A stretch of DNA of 24,058 nucleotides, from IMG/VR virus record IMGVR_UViG_3300036828_001341, positions 1-24,058 of that record; one strand, written 5' to 3'. The stretch comes from a virus. The notes under the pieces were generated by a model. The model was not told the DNA's origin. It made no database searches and was given only the letters and a program-made list of their open reading frames with translations. This document shows, piece by piece, positions 4,343 to 22,481 of this stretch. Position 1 is the stretch's first letter, and each line of letters opens with the position of its first letter. The translations under genes were made by a program, and so were the position numbers.

Positions 4343-4819
4343 TCATTCGTGCGCAAACTGGAAATGCATCGGGTCGTGCCGGATGCGAAAGTCACCGCCC
4401 CAGAACGCGCCTTCAGCCTTGAAGGCATCGATCACCGGTTGGGCCATATTGTGCGGATTGCTTGGCCGCGAATTCATTTCGTTGGCGTCAGGATCAAAAT
4501 CGACGGCGGCGCCAAACGCGTGCACGGACCAGCGCGACGAGCCGCGTACCGTGCGCGGGTTATAGGCACCGCCCCAGAGATGCATGCCAATGTCTTCGAT
4601 CGCGTCCTGCGATTGTTTGTAGTGCTGCCAGATGTTGTTGAGGATGCGGTGCATCGGCTCGATGCATTTCACGTGCATGGCAAAGCGCGGCACCACGTGA
4701 TGTGTGTCCCACGAGAACACCATGTGCCAGGGCACAATGACGTGACCAAGCTCAACCTTTCCCGGCTGCCCGTAAAACGCGATCAGACTGTGGGTGTCGT
4801 CGTGCGGCCAGAGCGACAT
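4343..4819 (-). CDS. M15-family peptidase (D-Ala-D-Ala carboxypeptidase/endopeptidase-like)
   Basis: 158 residues. I chose ATG 4819 because it forms a TGATG junction with the upstream stop and has GGGGG 9 nt before it; ATG 4828 would be too close to that site. The zinc motif S-x-H-x-x-G-x-A-x-D is present (Ser98, His100, Asp107). The late H-D-P-M-H-F supplies Asp149 and His152, so the M15 ligand set (His, Asp, His plus catalytic acid) is complete. Members hydrolyse peptide bonds in peptidoglycan stem peptides. With the muramidase 6 nt downstream, this suggests a two-enzyme lysis system, one cutting glycan and one cutting peptide. A tail-associated role cannot be excluded. Confidence 0.85.
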   Translation of the reverse strand: MSLWPHDDTHSLIAFYGQPGKVELGHVIVPWHMVFSWDTHHVVPRFAMHVKCIEPMHRILNNIWQHYKQSQDAIEDIGMHLWGGAYNPRTVRGSSRWSVHAFGAAVDFDPDANEMNSRPSNPHNMAQPVIDAFKAEGAFWGGDFRIRHDPMHFQFAHE

Positions 4820-5283
4820 CACCACCATCCCCCGTAATAGGGGTAGTAGGGCTGGCTTCCGTTTGGCACCGTCCACCACCACTGCGGCACGACAACCAAC
4901 GCATCTTCATAAGAAGAAGTTGGTGGAGGTGGCGGCGGTGGTGGCGGCGCGAATGCATTCGCATCAACCAGAACGAAGCCAACCCATGTCGTCGCGATCA
5001 TGTCGCTTATGGTCACGCGCAACGCATCGGAATATCGACCTGGATTGAGATCAACGGTGACCGAGTTGGGCACCAGGATATTGATCTGACCGCTAGTCGA
5101 TGGGCTCACGGTGGTGATCGTTGCGTCGGTCGTGACTTGATTGCCGTCGGGATCGAGCAACATCCATTCCAGCGTTGCGGCGGTCAGATCCAGAGGCGCG
5201 CCGGTGATGTCCGTCAACAAACCAGGTATCAGCCAATCATCGCCGGGAACCAGTTCGATATCGACGTGATGCGGGACCGCCAT
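4819..5283 (-). CDS. Small tail-region protein: beta-sandwich head, polyproline linker, aromatic tail
   Basis: 154 residues. ATG 5283 has AGG upstream. Residues 5-110 look all-beta: G-D-D-W near residue 14, then LTDITGAPLDLTAATLEW. This resembles small N-terminal domains of phage baseplate or receptor-binding accessory proteins. Residues 113-121 are nine consecutive prolines. The C-terminus is strongly aromatic, with WWW near 135-137 and a YYPYYGGWW end. The gene lies directly downstream (7 nt) of the giant fibre gene, so a virion accessory role, such as a fibre tip or chaperone, is plausible. I recognise no exact family, and the polyproline plus aromatic tail is unusual. Confidence 0.7.
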   Translation of the reverse strand: MAVPHHVDIELVPGDDWLIPGLLTDITGAPLDLTAATLEWMLLDPDGNQVTTDATITTVSPSTSGQINILVPNSVTVDLNPGRYSDALRVTISDMIATTWVGFVLVDANAFAPPPPPPPPPTSSYEDALVVVPQWWWTVPNGSQPYYPYYGGWW

Positions 5284-5290
5284 TTGTTAC

Positions 5291-8200
5291 CTATGCCCCT
5301 AACTTTTCGAATGGAGTTTGCGCGCCGATAGCTGCGCTGTGTCCGGCTTCTCCGCGCAGCGCGACACGGTTGAGCCCGCCCATACTGGTACCCTGGCTGC
5401 GCTCACCCACTAGCCGTGCTCCGGTTGCGCTGTGCCCGCTCAATGTTGGAACGAGTTGCCGTTGTCCCAACACTGGCGCGCAGGAAACCAGCCGCACGCT
5501 GCGCAAGGGCATGTTGGCGAACAAGCTGCCGGCGCCAGCGAACGCAGTCGCACCGAGCAGCGTTCGTTGCGCCAAGATGCCGGCGAACCGGGCATCACCC
5601 GCCAGCGCCGCGACGACTTGCTGGAAGGCCGTAGTTCCGGCTTGCAGTATGCTGGCGCCACCGAGCAGCGTTTGCAGCGCCATCAGGTTGGTGGCATGCG
5701 CGTTTATCGCACCAGCGCCCTGCAATGGCTGCGGGGCGAGCGCCGCCATTTGGCGGGCGACGGCGATCAGCGTACCTGCCGCACCGAAGCTCGCGCGGAG
5801 TGGCAACTCCACGCTGGCAACAACACTGAGGCCACCAACACTAGCGAACGCGGCGGAAATTCCCGCAGCCTGACCCAGGCGACCGAGATCCGCGGTCAGC
5901 ACGCCGGTCCCAACCCACAACGAGCCGGCGCTCATTCTGAGGGAGGCAGGAACGGTCAGCGTTGCATTGCCTGCCAGCAGCAAACTGGTGGCCATGGACT
6001 GGTTCGCGGCGGCGGCCAGCAACCCAGCGCCTGTGAATAGCGCAGAGCCTTGAGCAACGCCGGGCGTGAACGCACCCAGATCAGCCGCAAGCTGACCCGC
6101 GCCAGTCGCGGCCGAAGCCAATGACCCGCTGAGGGTCATGCGAGGAGCTGTGAGCGCGCCCGCGCCGAAGAGCGTGGCGGGGATGGGTAGCCGCTGCGCT
6201 GTCTGCGCTGTCAGCGCGCTCGTGCCTGCCATGGCGGCCGAGGCGGGTAACTGCGCCTGCAAGACCGTCGTGAGATTGCCAGTACCGACCAGCGCCGCGC
6301 TGCCCTGCAGAATATTAACGGCGAGCTTGACCAGATCGACGTTGAAGCTGCTAGCGCCACTAAACGCGGTCGCTACCTGCAACCACATATTCTCGCGGCT
6401 GGATAGCGCGCCAGCAGCAGTGAAGCTGGCAGTGCTGCCGATCAACTGCGGCAGCGCGGCTGAGAGTTGGCCAACGCCGGCCAATAGGATGCTGGTAGGG
6501 AGTCTAGCTTGGAGACCGCCAATGAGTTGGCCAGCGCCCGCGAGGTTCGCGGCGGACGCCAACCGCATGATCTCGGTTACGCTCAGCGCGCCAGCGCCGG
6601 GCCACAGAGCCTCACCGCTCCAGAGGTTCACGGCACCGAGAATGCGGAGTTCAACGCCGAGATTGCCGACGCCTGCAGTCTGAGCGGCGATGACTTGCCG
6701 CTGCGTTTCGGCCAGACTGAGTTGACCGTTAGCCGAGAATAGCGCCGCAGAGGTCGCGAGCCACTGCTGCGGACTGATAACGAGGTTGCCGGCGCCAGAG
6801 AGCGCGGCGCTCGCACCGCGCTGCACCGGCAGATTGGCCTGGAGCGCGCCAATGCCGAAGAAGTTGGCCGCCCCCGCAAGCCACTGCTGCGGGAGAGAGG
6901 CCGCGAAGGTGCCCGCGCCAGCCCATGCCGCGACGAGTGGTTGTCGCTGAACGGCAGTGGCCGTCAACGCAGCGGAGCCAGCAAACGCGGCATTGTCCGC
7001 GATCAACTGGTTGGCGGCGGCGACTAGGCTGGCGACACCAGCAAACGCGGAGGTGACAGGCCGCAGCGTCAGCAGGCTCGATGCCGAGGTGCCAGCACCG
7101 GCAAGTGTTGCGCTGCTCGCTAGCTGCAGGGACGGAGCAACAACTGAAAGCGTGCCAGCGCCGGCAAGTGCTGCCGTCGCGGCGAGTCCGACACTCGCTT
7201 GCGCTGCGAGTGCGGATGCACCAGCCCATAGAGCCGTGCCCTGCCAAGCAGTACCGGCACCGGCTAGGCGAGCTACGTCACCGACCAGCACGCCACTGCC
7301 GACCAGCGCGCTGGAAGTAACCAACAACTGATCGATCGGATCAGTGGTCGGCCAACTGGCCGTGCCCGCGCCGCTCAGTACTGCTGCGGTACCGAGCAGG
7401 ATGTTGAGCGCGGATGACTGGCTGCCCGCGCCTGCCAGCGTTGCCCGAGCAGCCAGCAATTGATTGATTGGATTGACCGTCGGCCAACTGGCTTGCCCAG
7501 CGCCGATTAAACTAGCCGCGCTGGGCAATAGTTGCGCTAACGCGGGCGCGGCAAGGGTGCCCGCACCGGACAGGGCAGCGGTCCCCTGCCACGCCGTCGC
7601 GGGGACTTGTCTGGTCAGATCAACACTTAGCGCACCTGCAGCTGACCAGATCGGAGCAACGAGCGGCGAGTATCGTTGCGCGCCAGCTGCAAGGACGCCA
7701 GCACCAGAGAAGCCGGCATTGCTGACAAGCTGCTGCGTTACTTGAGGTGCTGCTAGCGCCCCGGCGCCAGCTAATGCGGCAGCAGCCCGCGCGAGTAAAC
7801 TGGCATTGACAGTTAGGGCACCGATGCCAGCGGCAGTCGCCGCGCCTGGCCATGCAGGCGAAGCCGTACTAGAAATGTAAGTTGATAGACGACTATAAAA
7901 GTTGCTGGCGTCTGTCGCGGTCAGCGACCCACCAATAGAAATCATCACGTGCGTGTACGTATAGCATATCAATTGAGCAGTATCTAAATTGAAAGCAGAT
8001 GATGTATTGGAACCAAGGCTAACGCCATTGCGATAACCCTGCAGCGCAGCAGCGCCGCTGCGATTGGCAATAAAGAATCCACTGCTGTTAGAATTGGCGA
8101 ATCCGCCCGAACTGCTATTGTTGACTCGCAGGTAGCAATTGCCATCAGTATAAAGAGGATAAATTTCAGTTCCGCCAGCCCCGGTGATACCGTTCGCCGG

Positions 8201-9649
8201 CGAAGTTGATGCTACATTATTTAAAAACCACCCGGCAAGATGTCCGGCATTTAAGGTAAAATTTACTCCGTTGCTGCTAGGGATGTAACCAGTCGTGAGA
8301 TATGCACTACCATCCATCGGGCAGGCGTAACTGCTATAGGCCGTAAATACCGGCGCGCCAACTTCTGCTGCCAAAGCCCCCGCCACAACGTCGGTCAGCG
8401 CACCTATCTTAGTGTCAGCAGCAAATAACCAAAGCCGATCAAGCTTCGACCAAATACCGTCAGCCGTGAGGCCATCAATTAGATCGCTGACGATTTGCTT
8501 ATAAATAGCACCGACGCTGCCACCGTTGGCGACAACGGCAGCGACCCATGCATCAATTGGAGCTACTGGAGCTGCGCCCCCGGTTACATTGGCAGTCAGC
8601 GCACCGGCACCAGCAAGAAGCGCAGTACCCTGCCACTGCGTGCCCGCGCTCGCCGCCGTGTAGGTAACAACGATCAGGCCCGCGGCGCCGGTACCGATGC
8701 CGCCGGAATTTGTTCCACGCGTGCCGCCCGCCCCACCGCCGCCACCGCCGTAGAGCCCGCCCGCGCCGCCAGCAGAGGTTGCGGTTACGTTGCCGCTGAA
8801 GCCACCTCCACCGCCGCCGCCCGCGCCAGCACCGGCGTGCGAGCTATCGGATGTCTGTATCCAGTCGGTGACGTTGCCGAGTGTGCCACCCGCGTAGCCC
8901 GAGCCGACCATGCTGGCCGTCGTGGCGGTCGAACCCGCGCCGCCGCCGCCGCCGTGGCCGCCGGTCCCGGCCGAGCCGTTCGGAGCCGTCGCGCTGGAAG
9001 AACCAACACCAGCGCCGTTGGTAGCACCGACGCCGGCGGCACCCGCGGTGCCAGTTGCGGAGGCGACGCCACTACCATTCACGAGATTATTGGCAGCTCC
9101 ACCGCCAGCGCCGCCGAACCCGGCAGTGGCAGAACCTGGTCCGCCACTGCCCGCCTGCGCTGTGGGGCCACCAGCGCCACCGCCGCCACTGCCACCCCCG
9201 ATGACGCCGGTATTGGCCGAGCCACCAGCGCCGCCAGCGTTGCCAGTGCCGCTGTAGGTGACCGGGCTGGGAGTGCCATTGAGGCCGTTTGCAGCACCAG
9301 CGGAACCAGCCGTGGTCGTGTTACCGGCCTGGCCGCTGCCAGCGTAGTTCGAGTTTGTCGTGGAGGTCGATTGCCAGCAGGTCGAGCCGGTGCTGGGGTT
9401 GGCCGTGGTCGTGGAGTTGCCGGCGTTGCAGTCGAACTGGATCGTGCTGGCGGTGGTGCCGCTGGCGTAAGTAAGCTTGGTGTAAGCACCGCCCGCGCCG
9501 CCGCCACCGCCGCGCCCGCTGGTGCCGGTTGAGGCCGCGCCGGAGTTGCCGCCGCTGCCGACCAGCTCAACAGTATGGCCAGCGTCGGCCCAGTCGCTCG
9601 GCCGCGTCCACGGAACGGTGCTGGCGCTGGTGAGATAGACGACAGCCAT
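5291..9649 (-). CDS. Giant repeat tail fibre / receptor-binding protein
   Basis: 1452 residues. ATG 9649 overlaps the upstream stop (TGATG). The N-terminal ~30 residues contain a W-T/V-P-S-D-W motif typical of glycine-rich phage tail proteins. Residues ~30-330 are extremely Gly/Ala/Ser/Thr-rich with GGGGG runs (Gly_rich_2-like). One GAG repeat follows (~336-360), then a 250-residue globular domain (~345-595). That domain has an LDRLWLFAA motif and jelly-roll-like strands, similar to concanavalin/LamG-like receptor-binding domains of alphaproteobacterial phages. Residues ~600-1385 are about 37 copies of a 20-25 residue unit, A-x-L-x-G-A-G-x-L-x-A. The last ~65 residues are a distinct non-repeat end. 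Cell adsorption is the likely role (inference). The repeat type recurs in the fibre at 12505-14082. Confidence 0.85.
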   Translation of the reverse strand: MAVVYLTSASTVPWTRPSDWADAGHTVELVGSGGNSGAASTGTSGRGGGGGAGGAYTKLTYASGTTASTIQFDCNAGNSTTTANPSTGSTCWQSTSTTNSNYAGSGQAGNTTTAGSAGAANGLNGTPSPVTYSGTGNAGGAGGSANTGVIGGGSGGGGAGGPTAQAGSGGPGSATAGFGGAGGGAANNLVNGSGVASATGTAGAAGVGATNGAGVGSSSATAPNGSAGTGGHGGGGGAGSTATTASMVGSGYAGGTLGNVTDWIQTSDSSHAGAGAGGGGGGGFSGNVTATSAGGAGGLYGGGGGGAGGTRGTNSGGIGTGAAGLIVVTYTAASAGTQWQGTALLAGAGALTANVTGGAAPVAPIDAWVAAVVANGGSVGAIYKQIVSDLIDGLTADGIWSKLDRLWLFAADTKIGALTDVVAGALAAEVGAPVFTAYSSYACPMDGSAYLTTGYIPSSNGVNFTLNAGHLAGWFLNNVASTSPANGITGAGGTEIYPLYTDGNCYLRVNNSSSGGFANSNSSGFFIANRSGAAALQGYRNGVSLGSNTSSAFNLDTAQLICYTYTHVMISIGGSLTATDASNFYSRLSTYISSTASPAWPGAATAAGIGALTVNASLLARAAAALAGAGALAAPQVTQQLVSNAGFSGAGVLAAGAQRYSPLVAPIWSAAGALSVDLTRQVPATAWQGTAALSGAGTLAAPALAQLLPSAASLIGAGQASWPTVNPINQLLAARATLAGAGSQSSALNILLGTAAVLSGAGTASWPTTDPIDQLLVTSSALVGSGVLVGDVARLAGAGTAWQGTALWAGASALAAQASVGLAATAALAGAGTLSVVAPSLQLASSATLAGAGTSASSLLTLRPVTSAFAGVASLVAAANQLIADNAAFAGSAALTATAVQRQPLVAAWAGAGTFAASLPQQWLAGAANFFGIGALQANLPVQRGASAALSGAGNLVISPQQWLATSAALFSANGQLSLAETQRQVIAAQTAGVGNLGVELRILGAVNLWSGEALWPGAGALSVTEIMRLASAANLAGAGQLIGGLQARLPTSILLAGVGQLSAALPQLIGSTASFTAAGALSSRENMWLQVATAFSGASSFNVDLVKLAVNILQGSAALVGTGNLTTVLQAQLPASAAMAGTSALTAQTAQRLPIPATLFGAGALTAPRMTLSGSLASAATGAGQLAADLGAFTPGVAQGSALFTGAGLLAAAANQSMATSLLLAGNATLTVPASLRMSAGSLWVGTGVLTADLGRLGQAAGISAAFASVGGLSVVASVELPLRASFGAAGTLIAVARQMAALAPQPLQGAGAINAHATNLMALQTLLGGASILQAGTTAFQQVVAALAGDARFAGILAQRTLLGATAFAGAGSLFANMPLRSVRLVSCAPVLGQRQLVPTLSGHSATGARLVGERSQGTSMGGLNRVALRGEAGHSAAIGAQTPFEKLGA
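5500..7855 (-). repeat. Coding array of ~37 GAG-type protein repeats
   Basis: Reading the translated C-terminal half by eye gives about 37 units of mostly 20-21 residues, some 22-26. Each is centred on a G-A-G (or G-x-G, G-A-S, A-A-G) box preceded by A-x-L/F and followed by x-L-x-A. Longer units carry an inserted W-Q-G-T, L-Q-G-S or A-Q-G-S motif at intervals. At DNA level the units are diverged, so this is an old protein repeat rather than a satellite. Two WPT-x-x-P-I-x-Q-L-L units, near 7320-7360 and 7460-7500, are more alike and point to a later local duplication. Confidence 0.85.
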
Positions 9650-10041
9650 CAGGCAAGCACCAGCTTTGTCGTATCAAGCGACTTTTGCCGGTACCACGTC
9701 TTGCGCGCCCGATACGCGCGGATCGCCTCCTGCTTGTCGGGATCGTTGGTCATGGCGTTCTTGTCGACCCAGTGCTCCACAGCCAACTCACCGAGCGCGA
9801 TGACGTAGGGATGGTCACCCCAGGCGATTGGCTCGTGCACAGTCTTGCCTGGGACCAGGCAGACGTATTCACCTAGCCCGACGTGTGCCGCGAGCTGGTC
9901 GGGATGCGTCACCACCACCCGCGTTCCGCCGAAACGGTCGAGGATGCCCGCAATGCGGCTAGTACGCCGATCGCGCTTGCGGCATAGCTTGTTGCCGCCG
10001 CCCTTGCATTGCCCTTCCAGGCACGCCGGGCAGAGCGCCAT
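9649..10041 (-). CDS. Small cysteine-rich (zinc-ribbon-like) protein
   Basis: 130 residues. I use ATG 10041 because it overlaps the stop of the preceding gene (TAATG). The longer open frame to 10461 only antisenses or shadows its neighbour. The N-terminus has C4-x2-C7-x4-C12-x7-C20 with basic residues (KGGGNKLCRKRDRR), suggestive of a metal-binding knuckle. The middle has a beta/alpha pattern (TRVVVTHPDQLAAHVG). The C-terminus is basic, with RAYRARKTWYRQKS. It sits between a Gp80-like tail protein and the giant fibre and is translationally coupled to both. Possible roles are fibre assembly chaperone or adaptor. No family is recognised with confidence. Confidence 0.65.
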   Translation of the reverse strand: MALCPACLEGQCKGGGNKLCRKRDRRTSRIAGILDRFGGTRVVVTHPDQLAAHVGLGEYVCLVPGKTVHEPIAWGDHPYVIALGELAVEHWVDKNAMTNDPDKQEAIRAYRARKTWYRQKSLDTTKLVLA

Positions 10042-10451
10042 TAGGTCAAGGTGATCACCAAAGCGCTCGATGCAAGGACGAGTGAGTCGCCCGCGAGCGG
10101 GGTGCGAGGCGTTGCCAGGTTGCCGTACCAGAGCATATTCGGTGCCGCGCTGGTGGCGTTGTCGACCACGGTCAGCCCGCTGATCGCTCCCGAGGAAGAG
10201 AATGGGCCAAACGTGGCAGCCGTGGCGTTCCAGGAAGTGCCGATCCCGCCGCCAGTGGTGGCAGTGGTGAACCAGGTCGTGGCCGCGCCGATCCTGCTGT
10301 AGCCAGAACCAGCACCTACTTCCGACATGGACTGATAGGTTGGCGCCCCCAGGGCCAGCGCGACGTAGGTGCCGGGCGGCTTGACTGGCGTCGCGCTGCA
10401 CAATACCCAATCCAGCATGTTCTTCTGGCTCCAGAGACCAATATTTGCCAT
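10041..10451 (-). CDS. Phage tail protein, Gp80-like small fibre/structural family
   Basis: 136 residues. ATG 10451 has a clear GGAG 9 nt upstream. The layout matches a widespread family of small phage tail proteins: a short helix at the N-terminus, then YVALALG, a G-S-G-Y-S-R motif (about 48-53), TFGP near the middle, G-A-I-S-G-L, and MLWYGNLATPR followed by L-A-G-D-x-L. Typical members read G-G-G-Y-A-R, a central F-x-x-A-x-G, L-x-Y-G-x-L and I-x-x-G-D, and end in ALxITL, as here (ALVITLT). These proteins are found in virions or beside fibre genes; their exact position is not settled. It lies between the methyltransferase and the Cys-rich gene, overlapping the latter by 1 nt. Confidence 0.75.
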   Translation of the reverse strand: MANIGLWSQKNMLDWVLCSATPVKPPGTYVALALGAPTYQSMSEVGAGSGYSRIGAATTWFTTATTGGGIGTSWNATAATFGPFSSSGAISGLTVVDNATSAAPNMLWYGNLATPRTPLAGDSLVLASSALVITLT

Positions 10452-10457
10452 AGCATT

Positions 10458-11144
10458 TCACTCCTCTGCTTGATCGTGCCGCTGGAAAAATGCCAGGCGA
10501 CCTTGTGAAGACGGGAACGGTTGATCCCAGTGTTGGTGAAACAGCCTGCGCAGTTCGCCCCAGACGTCCTGATGGTCATCAACCCAATCGCAACTGCGGC
10601 CATTGACTACCGGCAGATAGCGAAACTGTTCATTCAACACCAACAGTCGCCCATCGCCGGAGAGATTGCGCCAGATGAAATTGATGTCCTCGATCGGTCG
10701 GCGGCAATGCTGCAGTGTCCAAATCGCAATAGCAGCATCGAAGTCCGGCGCCAGCGCGTCACATATTTCCGCTGAGCAAGACATAAACCGGTCGCTCTGC
10801 ACATAGGTGTGCGCCATGCTGCGCATCGACTTGCTGATATCGACGCCGACAACATGACAGCCGTAGTGCTCGATCATCACTTTGGCGAGACGCCCAACGC
10901 CACAGCCGTAGTCCAACACCCAGCTGTCGCGCGTGAGCTTGAGTTGATCGAAATACTGCACCATGAATTCGGTTTCATGAGTCCAGCGTTCTGCGACCGT
11001 GATGCTGGGCGTCGGCGTCAAGATCACACTCTTGGCGGCGTCGATACTCTGCTGATTGAAGATCAGCGGATTGTAGTCCAGGTCGACGGTCGGTCCGACG
11101 CTGAGTCCGTTCGCGTCGACCCCGCGGATCAGGGTCCCGTGCAT
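10458..11144 (-). CDS. Class I SAM-dependent methyltransferase
   Basis: 228 residues from ATG 11144. The longer frame to 11384 lies over the neighbouring gene and is a shadow. GGAG lies 10 nt upstream of the ATG, which is separated by one base from the preceding stop. Motif I is V-L-D-Y-G-C-G-V-G-R-L (residues 76-86), motif II G-V-D-I-S (100-104), and a motif IV-like stretch F-D-A-A-I-A-I-W-T-L-Q-H lies near 135-146. These make a Rossmann-fold SAM binder of the small-molecule or glycan O/N-methyltransferase type, rather than a DNA methyltransferase; no DPPY/NPPY motif is seen. Its place next to a glycosyltransferase in a fibre module suggests modification of a glycan or of the fibre itself (inference). 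Confidence 0.85.
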   Translation of the reverse strand: MHGTLIRGVDANGLSVGPTVDLDYNPLIFNQQSIDAAKSVILTPTPSITVAERWTHETEFMVQYFDQLKLTRDSWVLDYGCGVGRLAKVMIEHYGCHVVGVDISKSMRSMAHTYVQSDRFMSCSAEICDALAPDFDAAIAIWTLQHCRRPIEDINFIWRNLSGDGRLLVLNEQFRYLPVVNGRSCDWVDDHQDVWGELRRLFHQHWDQPFPSSQGRLAFFQRHDQAEE

Positions 11145-11145
11145 G

Positions 11146-11388
11146 TCAGTGGCGCTCCACCTTGTTCCCGTCTTTGTCGACAATATGGATCTGCGATTCG
11201 TCAATGCGCAGAACGCCAAAGCCCTTGCTTTCGGCGAGTGGCTGCTGCGTCTGGATCGGACGGCAGATCTGATAAATCGCGCGCGGCGTCGTACCGGGCA
11301 CCAGCATCCAGCCTTCGCGTCCTTTGGCTTCCAGCGCCTGTTGAACATTCGCATCGAGCGGAACGACGAACGTGTCGAATTCAAGCAT
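11146..11388 (-). CDS. Small hypothetical protein between glycosyltransferase and methyltransferase
   Basis: 80 residues from ATG 11388, which follows GGGGAAG at good distance. It overlaps the glycosyltransferase stop by 8 nt. The N-terminal 45 residues (EFDTFVVPLD, EGWMLVPG) recall the short alpha/beta DUF4177-like pattern of a strand, then a helix, then E-G-W-x-L-V. The second half ends in a strand-rich basic tail (FGVLRIDES, IHIVDKDG). There is no signal peptide or TM. It is coupled to both flanking enzymes, so it may be a partner of one of them. Function unknown. Confidence 0.65.
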   Translation of the reverse strand: MLEFDTFVVPLDANVQQALEAKGREGWMLVPGTTPRAIYQICRPIQTQQPLAESKGFGVLRIDESQIHIVDKDGNKVERH

Positions 11389-12484
11389 GAGGCTTCCCCT
11401 TCTCCAGCAATTGCGCCGCCGCCCTGATGACTGCATCAGCCGGGATATCGGAGATGCATGCAGCGCCGTTCTTCCATTGGTTCAAGCGGCAGGTGTCTGC
11501 AGTGTCGTGCAGCCTATGGCACGGCCAACAATCGACCCGGCGCGGGTCGGCATGCAGGCTGACCGTATTGCGCCAGTGTTTGGTAATGTTCTGGACCGAG
11601 GCATGCGAATGCAGCACGATTTTCGGGCTGGGCTCGAGCGCGACCGCCCAAGCTGGCCCAGTATCTGGTCCAATCATTAAATCCAGCGATTGCGTGAACG
11701 ACAACACCCGCCGCAGCGGCCAACCGTCGCCGCCCACATGCTGCAGTCCGGCTTTGCTGCCGTTCTGCGCTTCGACCATCTGGAAAGTCTGCTCGGCCAG
11801 TGCATAGTCCGGCGTGCCCGGTCCCCTGCCGATCAGCACGACTTGCGCGTCCAACTCCTTGATCAGTCGACCAATGGTCTGTGGCGCTTGTGGATAGACC
11901 TTGTCGATACGCGTGCCGTTGCAGCACCAGCCAATGATTGGACCGGTGCCGATCTTGTTGCGCGTCTGTTGCGCGTTCTCGATCTCTTCATCGGTCGGCC
12001 AGAACAGCCGATCAAAGGTATAGGGAACATCGAGTAGATCGCAGGCCGTTTCCAGATAACTGCCAGCGAAAAACTTGCGGCGATAATGCGCTGGCCACCA
12101 AAACGACGACATGGCCGGGAACGCTGCATGCCGCACCTCGACGGTGTGGCTCAGATTGGCGAAGCGGTCGTATTCTTTGCTGCGCTTGGCAAACCATTGG
12201 CACCAGGCGAGTTGGTCTTTGGGCCAATCCTCTTGCTGGTAAACCGATAGCTTATCGATATGAGGGTTGTTGAGATACAGTTCGTGGTTCGGCTCTTGGC
12301 TGATGCACTCGACCATGTAGCCGAGATCCTTGAGCGGCTTGGCGACAGCGGCCGCGATGAGGTTATCACCGACGCCGCCAAATCGACAGAAGCAAGCCCA
12401 GGCTTTGGCACCGACCTCGCGCTCAGCGTAGTGCACGAAGTTCCCATCCCGCGTGGTCGCGCTCTTCATATTGCGTTCAAGCAT
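11381..12484 (-). CDS. GT9-like glycosyltransferase (heptosyltransferase fold)
   Basis: 367 residues. ATG 12484 has GGGGG just upstream; ATG 12469 is an alternative without a clear ribosome binding site. The N-terminal C-R-F-G-G-V-G-D-N-L-I (about 33-43) matches the R-x-G-x-x-G-D loop of ADP-heptose:LPS heptosyltransferase-type GT-B enzymes. The C-terminal lobe has VVLIGRGPGTPDY (about 215-227), then L-M-I-G-P-D-T-G-P-A-W-A (269-280), the canonical sugar-nucleotide site. A Cys cluster (C319-x2-C322, C332, C343) follows and could bind metal. No signal peptide is seen. Sugar donor and acceptor are unknown. It lies directly after the SPRY fibre gene and before the methyltransferase, pointing to a virion-glycan or fibre-modifying cassette (inference). 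Confidence 0.8.
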   Translation of the reverse strand: MLERNMKSATTRDGNFVHYAEREVGAKAWACFCRFGGVGDNLIAAAVAKPLKDLGYMVECISQEPNHELYLNNPHIDKLSVYQQEDWPKDQLAWCQWFAKRSKEYDRFANLSHTVEVRHAAFPAMSSFWWPAHYRRKFFAGSYLETACDLLDVPYTFDRLFWPTDEEIENAQQTRNKIGTGPIIGWCCNGTRIDKVYPQAPQTIGRLIKELDAQVVLIGRGPGTPDYALAEQTFQMVEAQNGSKAGLQHVGGDGWPLRRVLSFTQSLDLMIGPDTGPAWAVALEPSPKIVLHSHASVQNITKHWRNTVSLHADPRRVDCWPCHRLHDTADTCRLNQWKNGAACISDIPADAVIRAAAQLLEKGKPHA

Positions 12485-12504
12485 TTAACCCCCAAGGTGA
12501 TGTT

Positions 12505-14082
12505 TTAGCCCCAAGCCAAAAAGCCACTCGGTGGCGTGTAGGCAAACGTTGGCCCGGTGTTGATGGTGCACTGTCCCGTTCCGCCCGTGACGTCCAATGT
12601 GCAGGTCGGCCACAACGATGTACCCGCGCTATATACTGCCTGGAAATCAGCTGACCCGGTGCCGCCGGTTGAATGGAACCAAGTTCCATTAAGGTGCACC
12701 CAGACATTTTGGTTGGTGAGATCAACGGCGAAGCCGAGGACATCCCCCGCGCGGGGCGCTGTCGGGCCGCCCCCATAGTTCGTGCCAAGTAGCATCTCAG
12801 CATATTGGCCACTCTTAATCATAACGCCGAATGCAGCTGTGCCGGCGCCAAGGTCACCCCCCACGCTGTAACCAGTGGTGCTTAGACCCGCGTTGGGGCT
12901 GGTGGTTGATAGTACGTTCAGCGTGACCTCAAAATACAATTGGCCGCTGTTCCGGCTCTTGGTGCCGAGCGCACCCGCGAAGTTAGCCGTAGCGGTCGCG
13001 GTCTTGTTGCCATTGGTGAGTGTCGCATTCGTGGTGTTGACCGGGTCCCAAGTCGAGGACTGCACGAACGGATTGGCATTGACGCCACCTGCGCCAACCA
13101 GAGTGGTCTGCAGGATCCGTTGCGTTTGTATCAATCTAGCCGCAGAGGTACCCGCGCCAGCGAGGCTCGCTGATCCACCCAGCGCTATGGGCAAGCTGAT
13201 ACTGAGATTGCCAGCTCCTGCCAATGTGGCCGGCGCCGCCAGCCTCAGGCCCAATCTTGATGTGCCGCCACCAGCGCCAGCAAACAGCTGAGACCCGAGC
13301 TGCTTGACGGAGCTGGCCACTTGGGTCAGATCGACGTGAGCGGCGCCCGCACCAATCATCGTGGCCTGGATGCCGCGAAAATTAAACACATCGGCCGCGA
13401 CGCCGCCAACAGCGGAGAATGATCGAGGAGCCATTGGCAATTGGAACCCGATCAACGCCTGCAGGTTGCCGCTTCCAGACAAGGTCGGTAGAGCCAGAGA
13501 GTACGGCGTGACCAAGGCCGCGGCCAGCGCCCCTGCCCCAGCAAGGCCGGCTTGGCCGTACGGGTTAAGGGCGCTCGACTTGAGCGTCGCGTAGAGAAGC
13601 TGCACCTGGGTATTCAACGTTGCGAACTGCTGCTGCAGCGTGGTCAGCTGATTAGTCAGCGTTGCGAACTGCTGCTGCAGCGTGGTCAACGTCGCGAACT
13701 GCTGCTGCTGCTGCGTGGTCAGCGTCGCAAACTGCTGCTGCAGCGTGGTTAGCTGATTAGTCAGCGTCGCGATCTGATTTTCTACGTCAGTCGGATCGTA
13801 AGCGAGATTACCATTGGCATCGAACTGCAACGCGCCACCAAGGGGGATCTGTTGCAGCGGGCCGAGGCCCGGACTGGCGCGCCCGATCAACGACGGGCCC
13901 ACGCCTTCCATATAAATGCCTTCGTTGCCCCAGTTCGTCGTGACGGCTTCCATAATGCCGTCATCGAGATGGGACCACAAAAAGGCACGCGGATAGAGCG
14001 GATAGGGATCGGCGACTAGAACGCCTTCGCCGTCGAACTCGGCCTGGAGTGTGTATGTGCGCGCGAGGCGGCGGTTAGACAC
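12505..14082 (-). CDS. Tail fibre: coiled coil, GAG repeats, SPRY-like tip
   Basis: 525 residues. I prefer GTG 14082, with AAGGG about 9 nt upstream, over TTG 14088, which is too close to it. Residues 1-95 are a compact N-terminal domain, probably the attachment part (RRLARTYTLQAEFDGEGV...). Residues ~100-165 are a Gln/Thr/Leu coiled coil built of a 14-residue repeat (TNQLTTLQQQFATL). Residues ~175-335 hold about eight GAG-type repeats like those of the giant fibre. Residues ~340-525 resemble a SPRY/concanavalin-like domain (S-G-x-x-Y-F-E-V-T-L, then FAVDLTNQNVWVHLNG-W). A trimeric fibre with a receptor-binding tip is likely. The gene starts 12 nt after the gpD stop. Confidence 0.8.
   Translation of the reverse strand: MSNRRLARTYTLQAEFDGEGVLVADPYPLYPRAFLWSHLDDGIMEAVTTNWGNEGIYMEGVGPSLIGRASPGLGPLQQIPLGGALQFDANGNLAYDPTDVENQIATLTNQLTTLQQQFATLTTQQQQQFATLTTLQQQFATLTNQLTTLQQQFATLNTQVQLLYATLKSSALNPYGQAGLAGAGALAAALVTPYSLALPTLSGSGNLQALIGFQLPMAPRSFSAVGGVAADVFNFRGIQATMIGAGAAHVDLTQVASSVKQLGSQLFAGAGGGTSRLGLRLAAPATLAGAGNLSISLPIALGGSASLAGAGTSAARLIQTQRILQTTLVGAGGVNANPFVQSSTWDPVNTTNATLTNGNKTATATANFAGALGTKSRNSGQLYFEVTLNVLSTTSPNAGLSTTGYSVGGDLGAGTAAFGVMIKSGQYAEMLLGTNYGGGPTAPRAGDVLGFAVDLTNQNVWVHLNGTWFHSTGGTGSADFQAVYSAGTSLWPTCTLDVTGGTGQCTINTGPTFAYTPPSGFLAWG
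13065..13550 (-). repeat. GAG-type protein repeats (about 8 units) in the SPRY fibre
   Basis: About eight ~20-residue units share the A-x-L-x-G-A-G-x-L box with the giant fibre's array, for example GLAGAGALAA, TLAGAGNLSI, SLAGAGTSAA and TLVGAGGVNA. Sharing between two fibres of one phage suggests duplication or exchange of the shaft module. Confidence 0.75.
13612..13790 (-). repeat. 42-bp class coding repeats of a coiled coil
   Basis: About five tandem units of 30-42 bp share the core aactgctgctgcagcgtggt (plus strand). Whole 42-bp units appear near 13615-13656 and 13720-13761, with shorter 30- and 33-bp units between. They encode the two-heptad unit TNQLTTLQQQFATL and truncated versions. 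High DNA identity points to recent slippage or unequal recombination that changes shaft length. Confidence 0.85.
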
Positions 14083-14094
14083 ATTCAATAACCC

Positions 14095-15648
14095 TTACAG
14101 GAACCCACCGGTGACTGCGATCGGGAACCCTCCGCCCGGCCCGAACGGGTCCAGTTCAATCGGAGGCGGCGCTTCCGGCGGCAAACTCGTGATGCTGTTG
14201 ACCGACGTCGATGGATTAATGCCCGGGTCGAGCAGCCCCGGCAGCTCCAGCGGCGGCGTCGGCACTAACGGTGGCGCAGTGTTTGATAGCCCGAAGGCAA
14301 TCGGCGGCAACTGCGCGATCTTCTCGGCAAAGTATCCTTGCAATACGTTGATGTTGGCGCCAGCGTATGGATTGGTGCGCACATCCAGCCAAGTAATGTA
14401 ACCTTGGCGCGAATAGATGTGCTCAACCGCGTCGATCGCGATGTAGTCGCCATCAACGCCAGGCCGCACGCCACTCACCAAACAATGACAAGCCCAACGC
14501 GCTCTCGGCTCGCCGTTAATACAGATGCGACCGTGCCCGGTGTCAGTCCCGGCCAAGTTAGCGCCACCCGCAGCGTCGTCCTGCGCATCGATCCTGCTGG
14601 CAGCTGGCGACGGGTGCAAGGCGTTGGCGATCGCTCCGGTCACCGCATCCACCTGCGCGTCGAAGTTATTGCCGACCTTAATCCGCTTCCATTGCCCAGA
14701 GAGCGTGTCGTAGTAATGCTGCTCGTCGGCATTAAACACGCCGCGCGATACGTATGGCCGCACGCGCAACGAGATTAGGTTCTGGCCGACAATGACGGGG
14801 ATGTCCACTGGACTCTCGGTGAACGCCATGATCGCCAGCTTGTTGCCGTCATGCCAGAAGGCGAACAGCCCGTGCGAGTCGCACAGTCGTGTCACCATCT
14901 GCATGAAGCTCTCGTTCTGCCGGTCCCAGTGGTCGCGAACGAAGGTCTTGGCCATCGGCGACATATGGTCGATCGTCACGCCAGCCATCTGGGCGCCCTG
15001 CTGGATGAACTCATCCATCCCGTGGGGCGTACCTTCATTTGCCCCCGGCGGCGCACCCTCGCCGAGGTTATCAGAGGCAGGTTCTTTAATTTTGTTGGTG
15101 ATGTTGATGCCAAAGACGTGCACGGTCATGTGCCGTCCGCCCTGGCGCGCGTCACTGTACTCGACCTCCCAAACGTTGCCGGAGAACAACAACCCGCTCG
15201 CCGGCTCGTTGATCCAACCGAGCTGGATCTCGACCGCCGCACTGACTGGCGGCAATGGCAACCATCCGTAGCGATCGTCGATCTCAATCTCGGCGGTCAG
15301 TAGCGGCCGTTGGATGATGCGCACCGAAATCAGAAAGGGCAGAATTTTATTGGTGACATCGATGCCGCCGACTATGATCACACAGAACGCCCGCACCCGC
15401 CCTGCCTGCGAATTGCCTATAAAGGGATTATACGGCGGATTGTTGGGGTCCGGCGCAAAGATGTCGGTGGTGAATTGCTTCCCTTGCCAGGTACCATCCA
15501 AACTCAGCCCGCCGCTGGCGCTATTGATGAGCCGCGGCTTGGGCGGCCGGACATCAAGCAACGGATTGCCAAACGGCTGCTGCACTTGCCCCGGCTGCAG
15601 CCCCGCATTCTGATTGAGCAATGCGGGGAGGCCGGTGCCGTTGCTCAT
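14095..15648 (-). CDS. D: Baseplate hub / late control protein D (gpD-like)
   Basis: 517 residues. ATG 15648 overlaps the gpX stop (ATGA). The protein matches the phage late control gene D family (PF05954-like; T4 gp27 equivalent). There is an N-terminal beta domain with EIDDRYGWLPLPP and VEIQLGWINEPASGLLFSGNVWEVEYSD. The middle carries F-V-R-D-H-W-D-R-Q-N-E-S-F-M-Q and R-L-C-D-S-H-G-L-F-A-F-W-H, a typical block. A C-terminal barrel-like part (GDYIAIDAVEHIYSRQGYITWLDV) follows. It forms the trimeric hub under the tube. It is longer than P2 gpD (about 390 aa): there is a Pro/Asn-rich N-terminal leader of about 80 residues and a Pro-rich C-terminal tail of about 60. The order U-X-D is classic for P2- and Mu-related tails. 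Confidence 0.9.
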   Translation of the reverse strand: MSNGTGLPALLNQNAGLQPGQVQQPFGNPLLDVRPPKPRLINSASGGLSLDGTWQGKQFTTDIFAPDPNNPPYNPFIGNSQAGRVRAFCVIIVGGIDVTNKILPFLISVRIIQRPLLTAEIEIDDRYGWLPLPPVSAAVEIQLGWINEPASGLLFSGNVWEVEYSDARQGGRHMTVHVFGINITNKIKEPASDNLGEGAPPGANEGTPHGMDEFIQQGAQMAGVTIDHMSPMAKTFVRDHWDRQNESFMQMVTRLCDSHGLFAFWHDGNKLAIMAFTESPVDIPVIVGQNLISLRVRPYVSRGVFNADEQHYYDTLSGQWKRIKVGNNFDAQVDAVTGAIANALHPSPAASRIDAQDDAAGGANLAGTDTGHGRICINGEPRARWACHCLVSGVRPGVDGDYIAIDAVEHIYSRQGYITWLDVRTNPYAGANINVLQGYFAEKIAQLPPIAFGLSNTAPPLVPTPPLELPGLLDPGINPSTSVNSITSLPPEAPPPIELDPFGPGGGFPIAVTGGFL

Positions 15649-21416: not shown

Positions 21417-21430
21417 CAGGGAGATTTTTG

Positions 21431-22105
21431 ATGCGGGACTTGACGGGGTTGAGATTTGGTCGCTTAACGGTGGTTCAGCGCGCCGAGGGCGCCTTCGAAC
21501 GGCCGTATTGGCTGTGCCGTTGCGACTGCGGCGGCACCATCGTGGCGAGGGGGAATAACCTCACAGGGCGCAAAAACCGCTCCTGCGGCTGCATGCTGAA
21601 CGACACAAACGCACGCCAAGGAATGATTGGACGCCGCTTCGGGCGCTGGAAGGTTCTCGAACAGGGGCCTTCTTCGGCGACCAGAATTGCTCGCTGGTGG
21701 TGCCGCTGTTCTTGCGGCGCTGAAGCTCTTGTCAACGGCTCGGATCTCCGCAGAGGCAAAAGCCGATCATGCGGATGTCTGGTCCCCGAGGCTGTTGCGG
21801 ATAGTCATCGCACTCACGGCCAAGGCCGCTGGCAAGAGCGCTCGCCTGAATACGTATCTTGGCTTTCCATGAAAGCCCGCTGTTATTTCACCAAACACCA
21901 ACACTATTCCTACTACGGCGGACGCGGGATTAAGGTCTGCAAACGTTGGCTACACAGTTTTGAAACCTTCCTGGCGGACATGGGACCGCGCCCGCCAGGA
22001 CTGACGCTCGAACGCATCAACGACAACGGTGACTACAAGCCAAGTAACTGCCGGTGGGCTACACGAAAAGAGCAGGCCAATAATCGCCGTCCACGATCTC
22101 GTTAG
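21431..22105 (+). CDS. HNH-type homing-endonuclease-like protein with duplicated zinc module
   Basis: 224 residues from ATG 21431. AGGGAG 8 nt upstream decides against TTG 21428. Residues 1-56 and 65-118 are two copies of one module: G-x-R-F-G-R-x-x-V, then C-x-C-x-C-G (C29/31/33 and C91/93/95), and R-S-C-G-C (C52/54 and C114/116), probably zinc-binding DNA-recognition units. Residues ~138-220 match a common phage block: [30 protein letters not shown], then [19 protein letters not shown] and NNRR. This is an HNH-like nuclease/AP2-associated fold. It stands alone on the plus strand inside the minus-strand tail operon, as free-standing homing genes do. Confidence 0.75.
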
Positions 22106-22481
22106 GCCGAGATATTCGAGCGCGGACTTCTGGATTGGTCCATTGCAATTTAACACTTTCCGACGTTCGTCCCTGACCTCCAGGTTCTAGATTCCAGAGA
22201 TTTGTATGTGAACTAATTGTACGAATTTCGTAATTGAATGCCTCTTCATCAGACAACCCCCCAACTAAAATTACTTCTTCGATTTGACGACCATTTAACA
22301 ATGCATGTGATAATTTCTTATAGAACAAAGTCGTTTGTACCGTTTCACCTACAATACGGCGCAACGCTATGCCACGAGCCTTTGAAACGTGATCGTATAC
22401 GCGTCGTCCTCTACCCTTGCCGATGTAACGAACAACACCATCAACTTTGATTGCGTAAACGTAGGCCATGTCCTTTTTCAT
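22059..22481 (-). CDS. GIY-YIG homing-endonuclease-like protein, C-terminus probably truncated
   Basis: 140 residues. ATG 22481 follows GAGGA at normal distance; ATG 22469 is an alternative. The N-terminus is a GIY-YIG domain: Y7-V-Y, then R-Y-I-G-K-G (Y19-I-G21) with R26 and a downstream E-E-A-F-N-Y-E helix that could hold the catalytic Glu. The end ([14 protein letters not shown]) looks like the start of a NUMOD-type DNA-binding motif but stops soon after. The last ~16 codons are read antisense through the HNH 3' end (47-nt overlap). The gene is visibly AT-richer than its neighbours, a sign of separate origin. It may be a functional short nuclease or a remnant cut off by insertion of the HNH gene. 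Confidence 0.7.

Follow-up and report, generated by a model that had tools for sequence, protein, structure and literature searches.

A GT9-family glycosyltransferase and a methyltransferase between two repeat fibres probably form a virion-modification cassette in a phage tail-fibre operon

To our knowledge, virion glycosylation has been documented in few phages, mostly those of actinobacteria. In mycobacteriophages, according to Freeman 2023 as relayed in PMC11600133, glycosyltransferase genes lying beside an O-methyltransferase modify the capsid and the tail tube. Another point of reference is TibC, whose reported donor-site residues are D110, T226-x3-K230, R286 and W305; the TibC and AAH genes are often followed by that of their autotransporter substrate (PMC4358343). 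We analysed the 24,058-base IMG/VR virus record IMGVR_UViG_3300036828_001341 (the whole stretch is called the window), in which a glycosyltransferase (GT) gene and a methyltransferase (MT) gene stand between two fibre genes, the whole module lying on the minus strand. Gene identities, predicted fold, selection and co-occurrence indicate that this cassette is probably a virion glycosylation-methylation system within a tail-fibre operon, acting on the fibre system, and for it we propose a donor, an acceptor, an order of reactions and a benefit. The result suggests that phages of this kind decorate their own tail fibres with sugars.

On the minus strand the genes run in the order sheath (weak PF04984), tube, tape measure, hub, fibre 1, GT, an 80-amino-acid (aa) protein (p80), MT, Gp80, a Cys-rich protein, the giant fibre, a 154-aa tail protein and lysis-type genes. 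The module itself consists of the following:

12505..14088, minus strand: fibre 1, 527 aa, with a conserved N-terminus, a coiled coil, GAG repeats (5 scored with confidence, about 6-8 counted by eye) and a SPRY-like tip; PHROG 10080, 1.1e-15
11381..12484, minus strand: GT9-family glycosyltransferase (GT), 367 aa, assigned through relatives and predicted fold
11146..11388, minus strand: p80, 80 aa, kept in loci L004-L006
10458..11144, minus strand: class I S-adenosylmethionine (SAM) methyltransferase (MT) of the Methyltransf_11 family, 228 aa; PF08241, 1.1e-12
10041..10451, minus strand: Gp80-family fibre protein, 136 aa; PF23140
9649..10041, minus strand: Cys-rich protein, 130 aa
5291..9649, minus strand: giant fibre, 1452 aa, with a Gly-rich N-terminal part (about 1-340), 36 scored repeats (mostly about 600-1383) and a conserved C-terminus
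6572..7186, minus strand: segment of ten giant-fibre units whose structure was predicted; all-beta, predicted local distance difference test (pLDDT) 54

These genes, which an earlier note on this DNA had listed and placed correctly, are tightly packed: 20 nucleotides (nt) separate fibre 1 from GT, GT and p80 overlap by 8 nt, gaps of 1 nt and 6 nt follow p80 and MT, respectively, and the Gp80/Cys-rich and Cys-rich/giant-fibre pairs overlap by 1 nt each. Judged from this spacing, translational coupling from GT through the giant fibre is plausible.

Searched against Pfam and PHROG, the window GT has no match at E<=1, so that the earlier label 'GT9-like' proves correct only by way of its relatives, 18 of 26 of which in the GT clade match PF01075 (best 6.1e-9), and of its predicted fold. 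The AF2 model (pLDDT 88), compared by Foldseek and Z scores, has the GT-B fold of heptosyltransferase type, with Z of 25.3 to the GT9 structure 3tov, 24.5 to WaaF, 20.8 to WaaC and 19.6 to TibC, and at most 13.4 to other GT-B structures. D40, K195, R258, T275 and G276 are invariant in 26 aligned GT sequences, W279 is invariant within the core clade, and four Cys of the C-lobe (319/322/332/343) are nearly so; the catalytic Asp and Lys and the DTG donor motif are present and conserved (D40, K195, T275 and G276), the equivalence of residues being by order only. By this predicted model the window GT is a divergent GT9 enzyme. Other viral GT9 models are held in BFVD, one of them named Aah/TibC, at 10-16% identity. 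The gene is under purifying selection, with a nonsynonymous rate (dN) of 0.04 against a synonymous rate (dS) of 0.56-0.70, and so are MT and p80, the values for the three genes ranging over dN 0.04-0.08 versus dS 0.33-0.70.

Besides 3tov, the closest solved relatives are the lipopolysaccharide (LPS) heptosyltransferases WaaF and WaaC, as would be expected if GT and MT modified a host surface glycan (LPS core or capsule), for instance to block superinfection or the adsorption of progeny to debris; the location among fibre genes would then reflect only that both kinds of gene are concerned with receptor glycans. That phages encode enzymes which modify receptors is well established. Nevertheless, we regard this explanation as distinctly unlikely, since the GT lies within a late tail operon, flanked by fibre genes, and this arrangement is kept among phages whose GTs share only about 45% identity, whereas superinfection exclusion requires early or prophage expression and the surface-modifying genes of temperate phages usually lie in lysogeny regions.

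The two fibres flanking the cassette have in common an A-x-L-x-G-A-G-x-L repeat of 20 residues, with a period of 20-21 and sometimes 24. When scored with a profile of 20 positions built on the giant fibre and compared with shuffled sequence, the giant fibre contains 36 units (shuffled repeat region: mean 0.47, maximum 3) and fibre 1 contains 5 (mean 0.06, maximum 1), which bears out the claim that the repeat is common to both. The earlier count of about 37 in the giant fibre is close to the scored number, but the 8 reported for fibre 1 shrink to 5 confident ones; a regular expression also gives 8 there, two of them inside the SPRY-like tip. That tip had been called SPRY, an assignment that is weak (PF00622, E 0.0055, below cut-off). 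Structure prediction of ten giant-fibre units gave an all-beta model of low confidence, and since its pLDDT is only 54, a solenoid-like shaft is a guess.

Scanning viral contigs with a GT profile retrieved 38 loci. A second scan, for Gp80, with GT absent from the query, retrieved 18 loci, in all of which (18/18) GT adjoins Gp80 and 11 of which were absent from the GT scan. After duplicate removal (L014 and L015 are near-identical) 37 core-clade GT loci remained, the window included; genes downstream were counted in the 25 loci with at least 6 kb after the GT, and methyltransferases in the 24 with adequate flanks. A protein with a 20/21-residue period lies downstream of the GT in 22/25 loci, even where the repeat sequence differs, and Gp80 does so in 23/25. 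An FkbM or Methyltransf_11 methyltransferase accompanies the GT in 21/24 loci, and in 16/24 an FkbM gene lies on the same strand as the GT, frequently fused to it or next to it. At 60% GT identity the 25 loci fall into 15 clusters. Among GT-free control loci, such a repeat protein was found in 8/74 (Fisher p 1.7e-12, relatedness uncorrected); these controls were picked by the GAG DNA pattern, which should raise their repeat count, and are not matched tail modules. The distant GT9 proteins of other phages (L035, L037, L038 and L040; 23-28% identity) have no such repeats. Hence the set of GT, Gp80 and long repeat fibre recurs in many distantly related loci of uncultured phages, the earlier note having proposed to check the co-occurrence of GT9, the 80-aa protein, a methyltransferase and a GAG-repeat fibre, and GT and methyltransferase genes are linked to virion genes as in the cassettes of virion-glycosylating phages. 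As far as conserved gene neighbourhood goes, the link between enzyme and fibre is supported.

Some of the same tail modules carry further glycan-type genes, namely UDP-glucose/GDP-mannose dehydrogenase, DUF5672 proteins and a second FkbM (L009 11388-12906, L026 7047-9651 and L033 11032-11799), so some of these phages may build larger glycans. In L017 (7665-10022), the gene immediately before the GT encodes 785 aa and includes a pro-kumamolisin activation domain (PF09286, 7e-16; S53 peptidase-like).

Two close relatives, L004 and L005, keep the whole gene order, with GT 93% and MT 91-92% identical to the window, whereas identity falls to 61-68% in fibre 1 and to 40-63% in the giant fibre. The divergence within fibre 1 lies towards its tip (32-49% identity, versus 88-91% at the N-terminus). 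The N-terminal part of the giant fibre has been exchanged, being Gly-rich in the window and LamG-type in L004 and L005 (PF13385 in L005), and the gene before it has been swapped along with it, a 130-aa Cys-rich protein in the window corresponding to a CxxCxxCC protein in the two relatives. The distant relative L006 has the same order, with the fibre-1 N-terminus, GT, p80, MT and Gp80 at roughly 52-69% identity; its GT is fused to an N-terminal FkbM methyltransferase (PF05050, 7.2e-20). In the window group FkbM appears to have been lost and the Methyltransf_11 gene retained. Because the beginning of the L006 FkbM domain aligns with about the first 20 residues of the window GT, the window gene looks like an FkbM-GT fusion after internal loss, with a remnant of the leader kept. 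On the 87.8-kb contig that also holds L005, a second fibre cluster (L191 3104-5671 and 9827-10531) encodes LamG-like (by eye) and weakly SPRY-like (8.7e-5) proteins upstream of tail tube genes.

Such swapping of fibre tips and giant-fibre N-termini between close relatives, together with the lack of p80 and MT in most distant relatives, is what one would see if the two enzymes were unrelated cargo genes (morons) that had landed in a recombination-prone fibre region and did not act together. This we hold to be very unlikely: the GT order is kept over the 15 clusters, a methyltransferase of either type is present in 21/24 loci, FkbM is fused to the GT in several, and purifying selection is strong.

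The MT profile matches solved small-molecule methyltransferases, including the D-glucose O-methyltransferase 6uv6, and MT relatives lie directly upstream of the GT in L022, L153 and L186. Its best PHROG match is a 'tRNA methyltransferase' family (9.4e-10), and as the fold class does not fix the substrate, MT might act on protein or nucleic acid instead of a sugar. We consider this improbable, for MT accompanies the GT in lineages that are separate (L006, L022, L153 and L186), and elsewhere FkbM, a family that commonly acts on sugars, takes its place or joins it. The small p80 has no Pfam match; it is 66-93% identical in L004-L006 and has weak relatives in L025, L027 and L019. The window Gp80 passes the curated cut-off of PF23140 (61.3 bits, cut-off 27), and Gp80 is also found without a GT (L075). 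A small Cys-cluster protein lies between Gp80 and the giant fibre in the window (9649-10041), L004 (6611-6925), L005 (11137-11448), L006 (8826-9215), L020 (13669-13923) and L009 (14384-14893); those scanned had no Pfam match, and their type switches with the fibre N-terminal domain, CxxCxxCC (YkgJ-like by eye) going with LamG and another type with the Gly-rich form.

We propose that, late in infection, the GT9 enzyme would transfer a sugar from a host-made nucleotide sugar, ADP-heptose-like to judge by its family, to the fibre assembly encoded alongside it; the giant repeat fibre, or Gp80 as its partner, would most likely be the target. The methyltransferase, represented in other phages by an FkbM domain often fused to the GT, would then methylate the sugar or the acceptor, if the steps follow in this order. 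The repeats, as a beta-rich and probably solenoid-like shaft, would serve as a spacer and possibly as a regularly spaced acceptor, and we hypothesize that they are themselves modified. The benefit may be masking of the fibre, stability or a tuning of adsorption.

Several observations weigh against this proposal. GAG-repeat proteins occur with no GT within 9-11 kb in L075, where the repeats stand beside a Gp80, and in L116, a situation that the earlier note had named as contradicting its link between enzymes and fibres; that reading is thus partly supported. In L025 the GT is present and a repeat protein is absent. The idea of a distinctive Ser/Thr acceptor site in the repeats of GT phages was rejected as a discriminator, content and placement showing no clear difference between GT-linked and GT-free repeats. 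The Gp80 query was built from GT-linked members, and because the controls were not chosen as tail modules, the association of GT and repeats could partly reflect that both kinds of gene live in such modules. In addition, six large relatives contain no epimerase or nucleotidyltransferase family able to make ADP-heptose; therefore a host donor must be assumed. The GT-free repeat cases came from a DNA pattern scan for GAG repeats that was unspecific (3/120 loci carry repeats by profile), and tblastn of the repeat region against 50,697 phage records gave no match, which means little as low-complexity filtering masked most of the query. The presence of the enzyme predicts that of the repeats much better than the reverse. 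Given the GT-free cases, the repeats look like a general shaft unit with no need of the enzyme, which belongs to a subset of the phages using such shafts.

The existence of repeats without a GT, and the position of Gp80 closely after the GT in nearly all loci, also fit a cassette whose target is some virion protein apart from the repeat fibre (Gp80, tail tube, sheath or capsid), which would be glycosylated, the repeat linkage being positional only; capsid and tail tube are the targets in mycobacteriophages, according to PMC11600133. This possibility, which overlaps with our proposal in that the latter allows Gp80 as acceptor, we consider tenable but doubtful, as the repeat fibre follows the GT in 22/25 loci and the tube and sheath genes are 8-10 kb away in the window. 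A virion glycosylation-methylation system acting on the fibre system thus stays the reading that we prefer.

Two tail genes border the module:

14095..15648, minus strand: tail hub / late control D-like protein that precedes the module; PHROG 52, 3.7e-15
4819..5283, minus strand: 154-aa tail protein that follows the giant fibre; PHROG 1084, kept in L004-L006

The hub weakly resembles proteins of Aurantimonas and Microcystis phages, in which no comparable annotated cassette was found, and the terminase matches are broad and single out no host. Searches by tblastn with the GT (three members) and MT found no match in the 50,697 phage records, and an FkbM-GT fusion query matched through its FkbM part only; the GT clade is thus absent from the isolated phages searched. 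No evidence pointed to DNA modification by the GT, an idea that was not pursued. A scan of genome contigs for the GT returned three matches, all distant (22-41% identity, two partial), and gave no bacterial home or host. Between the sheath and tube genes lie two probable homing-endonuclease-like open reading frames, at 21428-22105 (plus strand) and 22059-22481 (minus strand); one has HNH/AP2-like Cys motifs by eye and no Pfam match, and the other is weakly GIY-YIG (PF22945, 7e-4, below cut-off). Near the record end, a 54-bp tandem duplication (366-472) has 2 copies with a 92% match.

If our proposal is true, tail-fibre glycosylation would become a common trait through a conserved module of GT9, methyltransferase and repeat fibre present in many uncultured phages, and the occurrence of heptosyltransferase-like genes inside phage tail operons would be explained. 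The cassette would also offer a compact enzyme-substrate pair open to testing in laboratory E. coli.

Compared with known systems, the window GT resembles the GT9 heptosyltransferases WaaC, WaaF and 3tov in fold over about 265-290 residues (Z 20-25) and in the DTG motif, and its N-terminal GD motif aligns with 3tov. It differs in that identity is about 15% and in that the core phage clade has DTGxxW, sits in tail modules and is often fused to FkbM. FkbM (PF05050) is fused or adjacent to the GT in relatives, whereas the window group has a Methyltransf_11 enzyme and a leader of about 20 residues resembling the FkbM start instead. The window Gp80 belongs by its score with podophage GP4 fibre I (PF23140), but it occurs in a phage with a weakly matched sheath gene and is tied to a GT. 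The mycobacteriophage cassettes, as described in PMC11600133, likewise have GTs adjoining an O-methyltransferase; there, three tandem GTs modify capsid and tail tube, whereas the window has one GT9 between fibre genes.

TibC and AAH, of the BAHT family, have a GT9-like catalytic domain (Z 19.6 to TibC) and a gene followed by that of a repetitive elongated protein, as in the window. TibC D110, T226, K230, R286 and W305 match D40, T191, K195, R258 and W279 of the window GT only by sequence order and rough spacing, and the four C-terminal Cys of TibC, those of its iron finger (339/342/358/370), come in an order similar to 319/322/332/343, although other GT9 enzymes may share such Cys. The window GT is not nearer to TibC than to WaaF. 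It was not filed as a BAHT member because its predicted model lacks both the N-terminal domain of about 97 residues (the TibC beta-barrel) and the thumb strand pair in the C-lobe (191-258). It is unlikely, in our estimate, that the GT acts as a TibC-like protein heptosyltransferase along a beta-solenoid shaft, placing one heptose, then methylated, on each turn of about 20 residues and so giving a regularly sugar-coated fibre widespread among uncultured phages. By analogy, TibC, which heptosylates beta-helical autotransporters, would nonetheless be the closest guide to the mechanism of a GT9 enzyme whose partner is elongated and repetitive.

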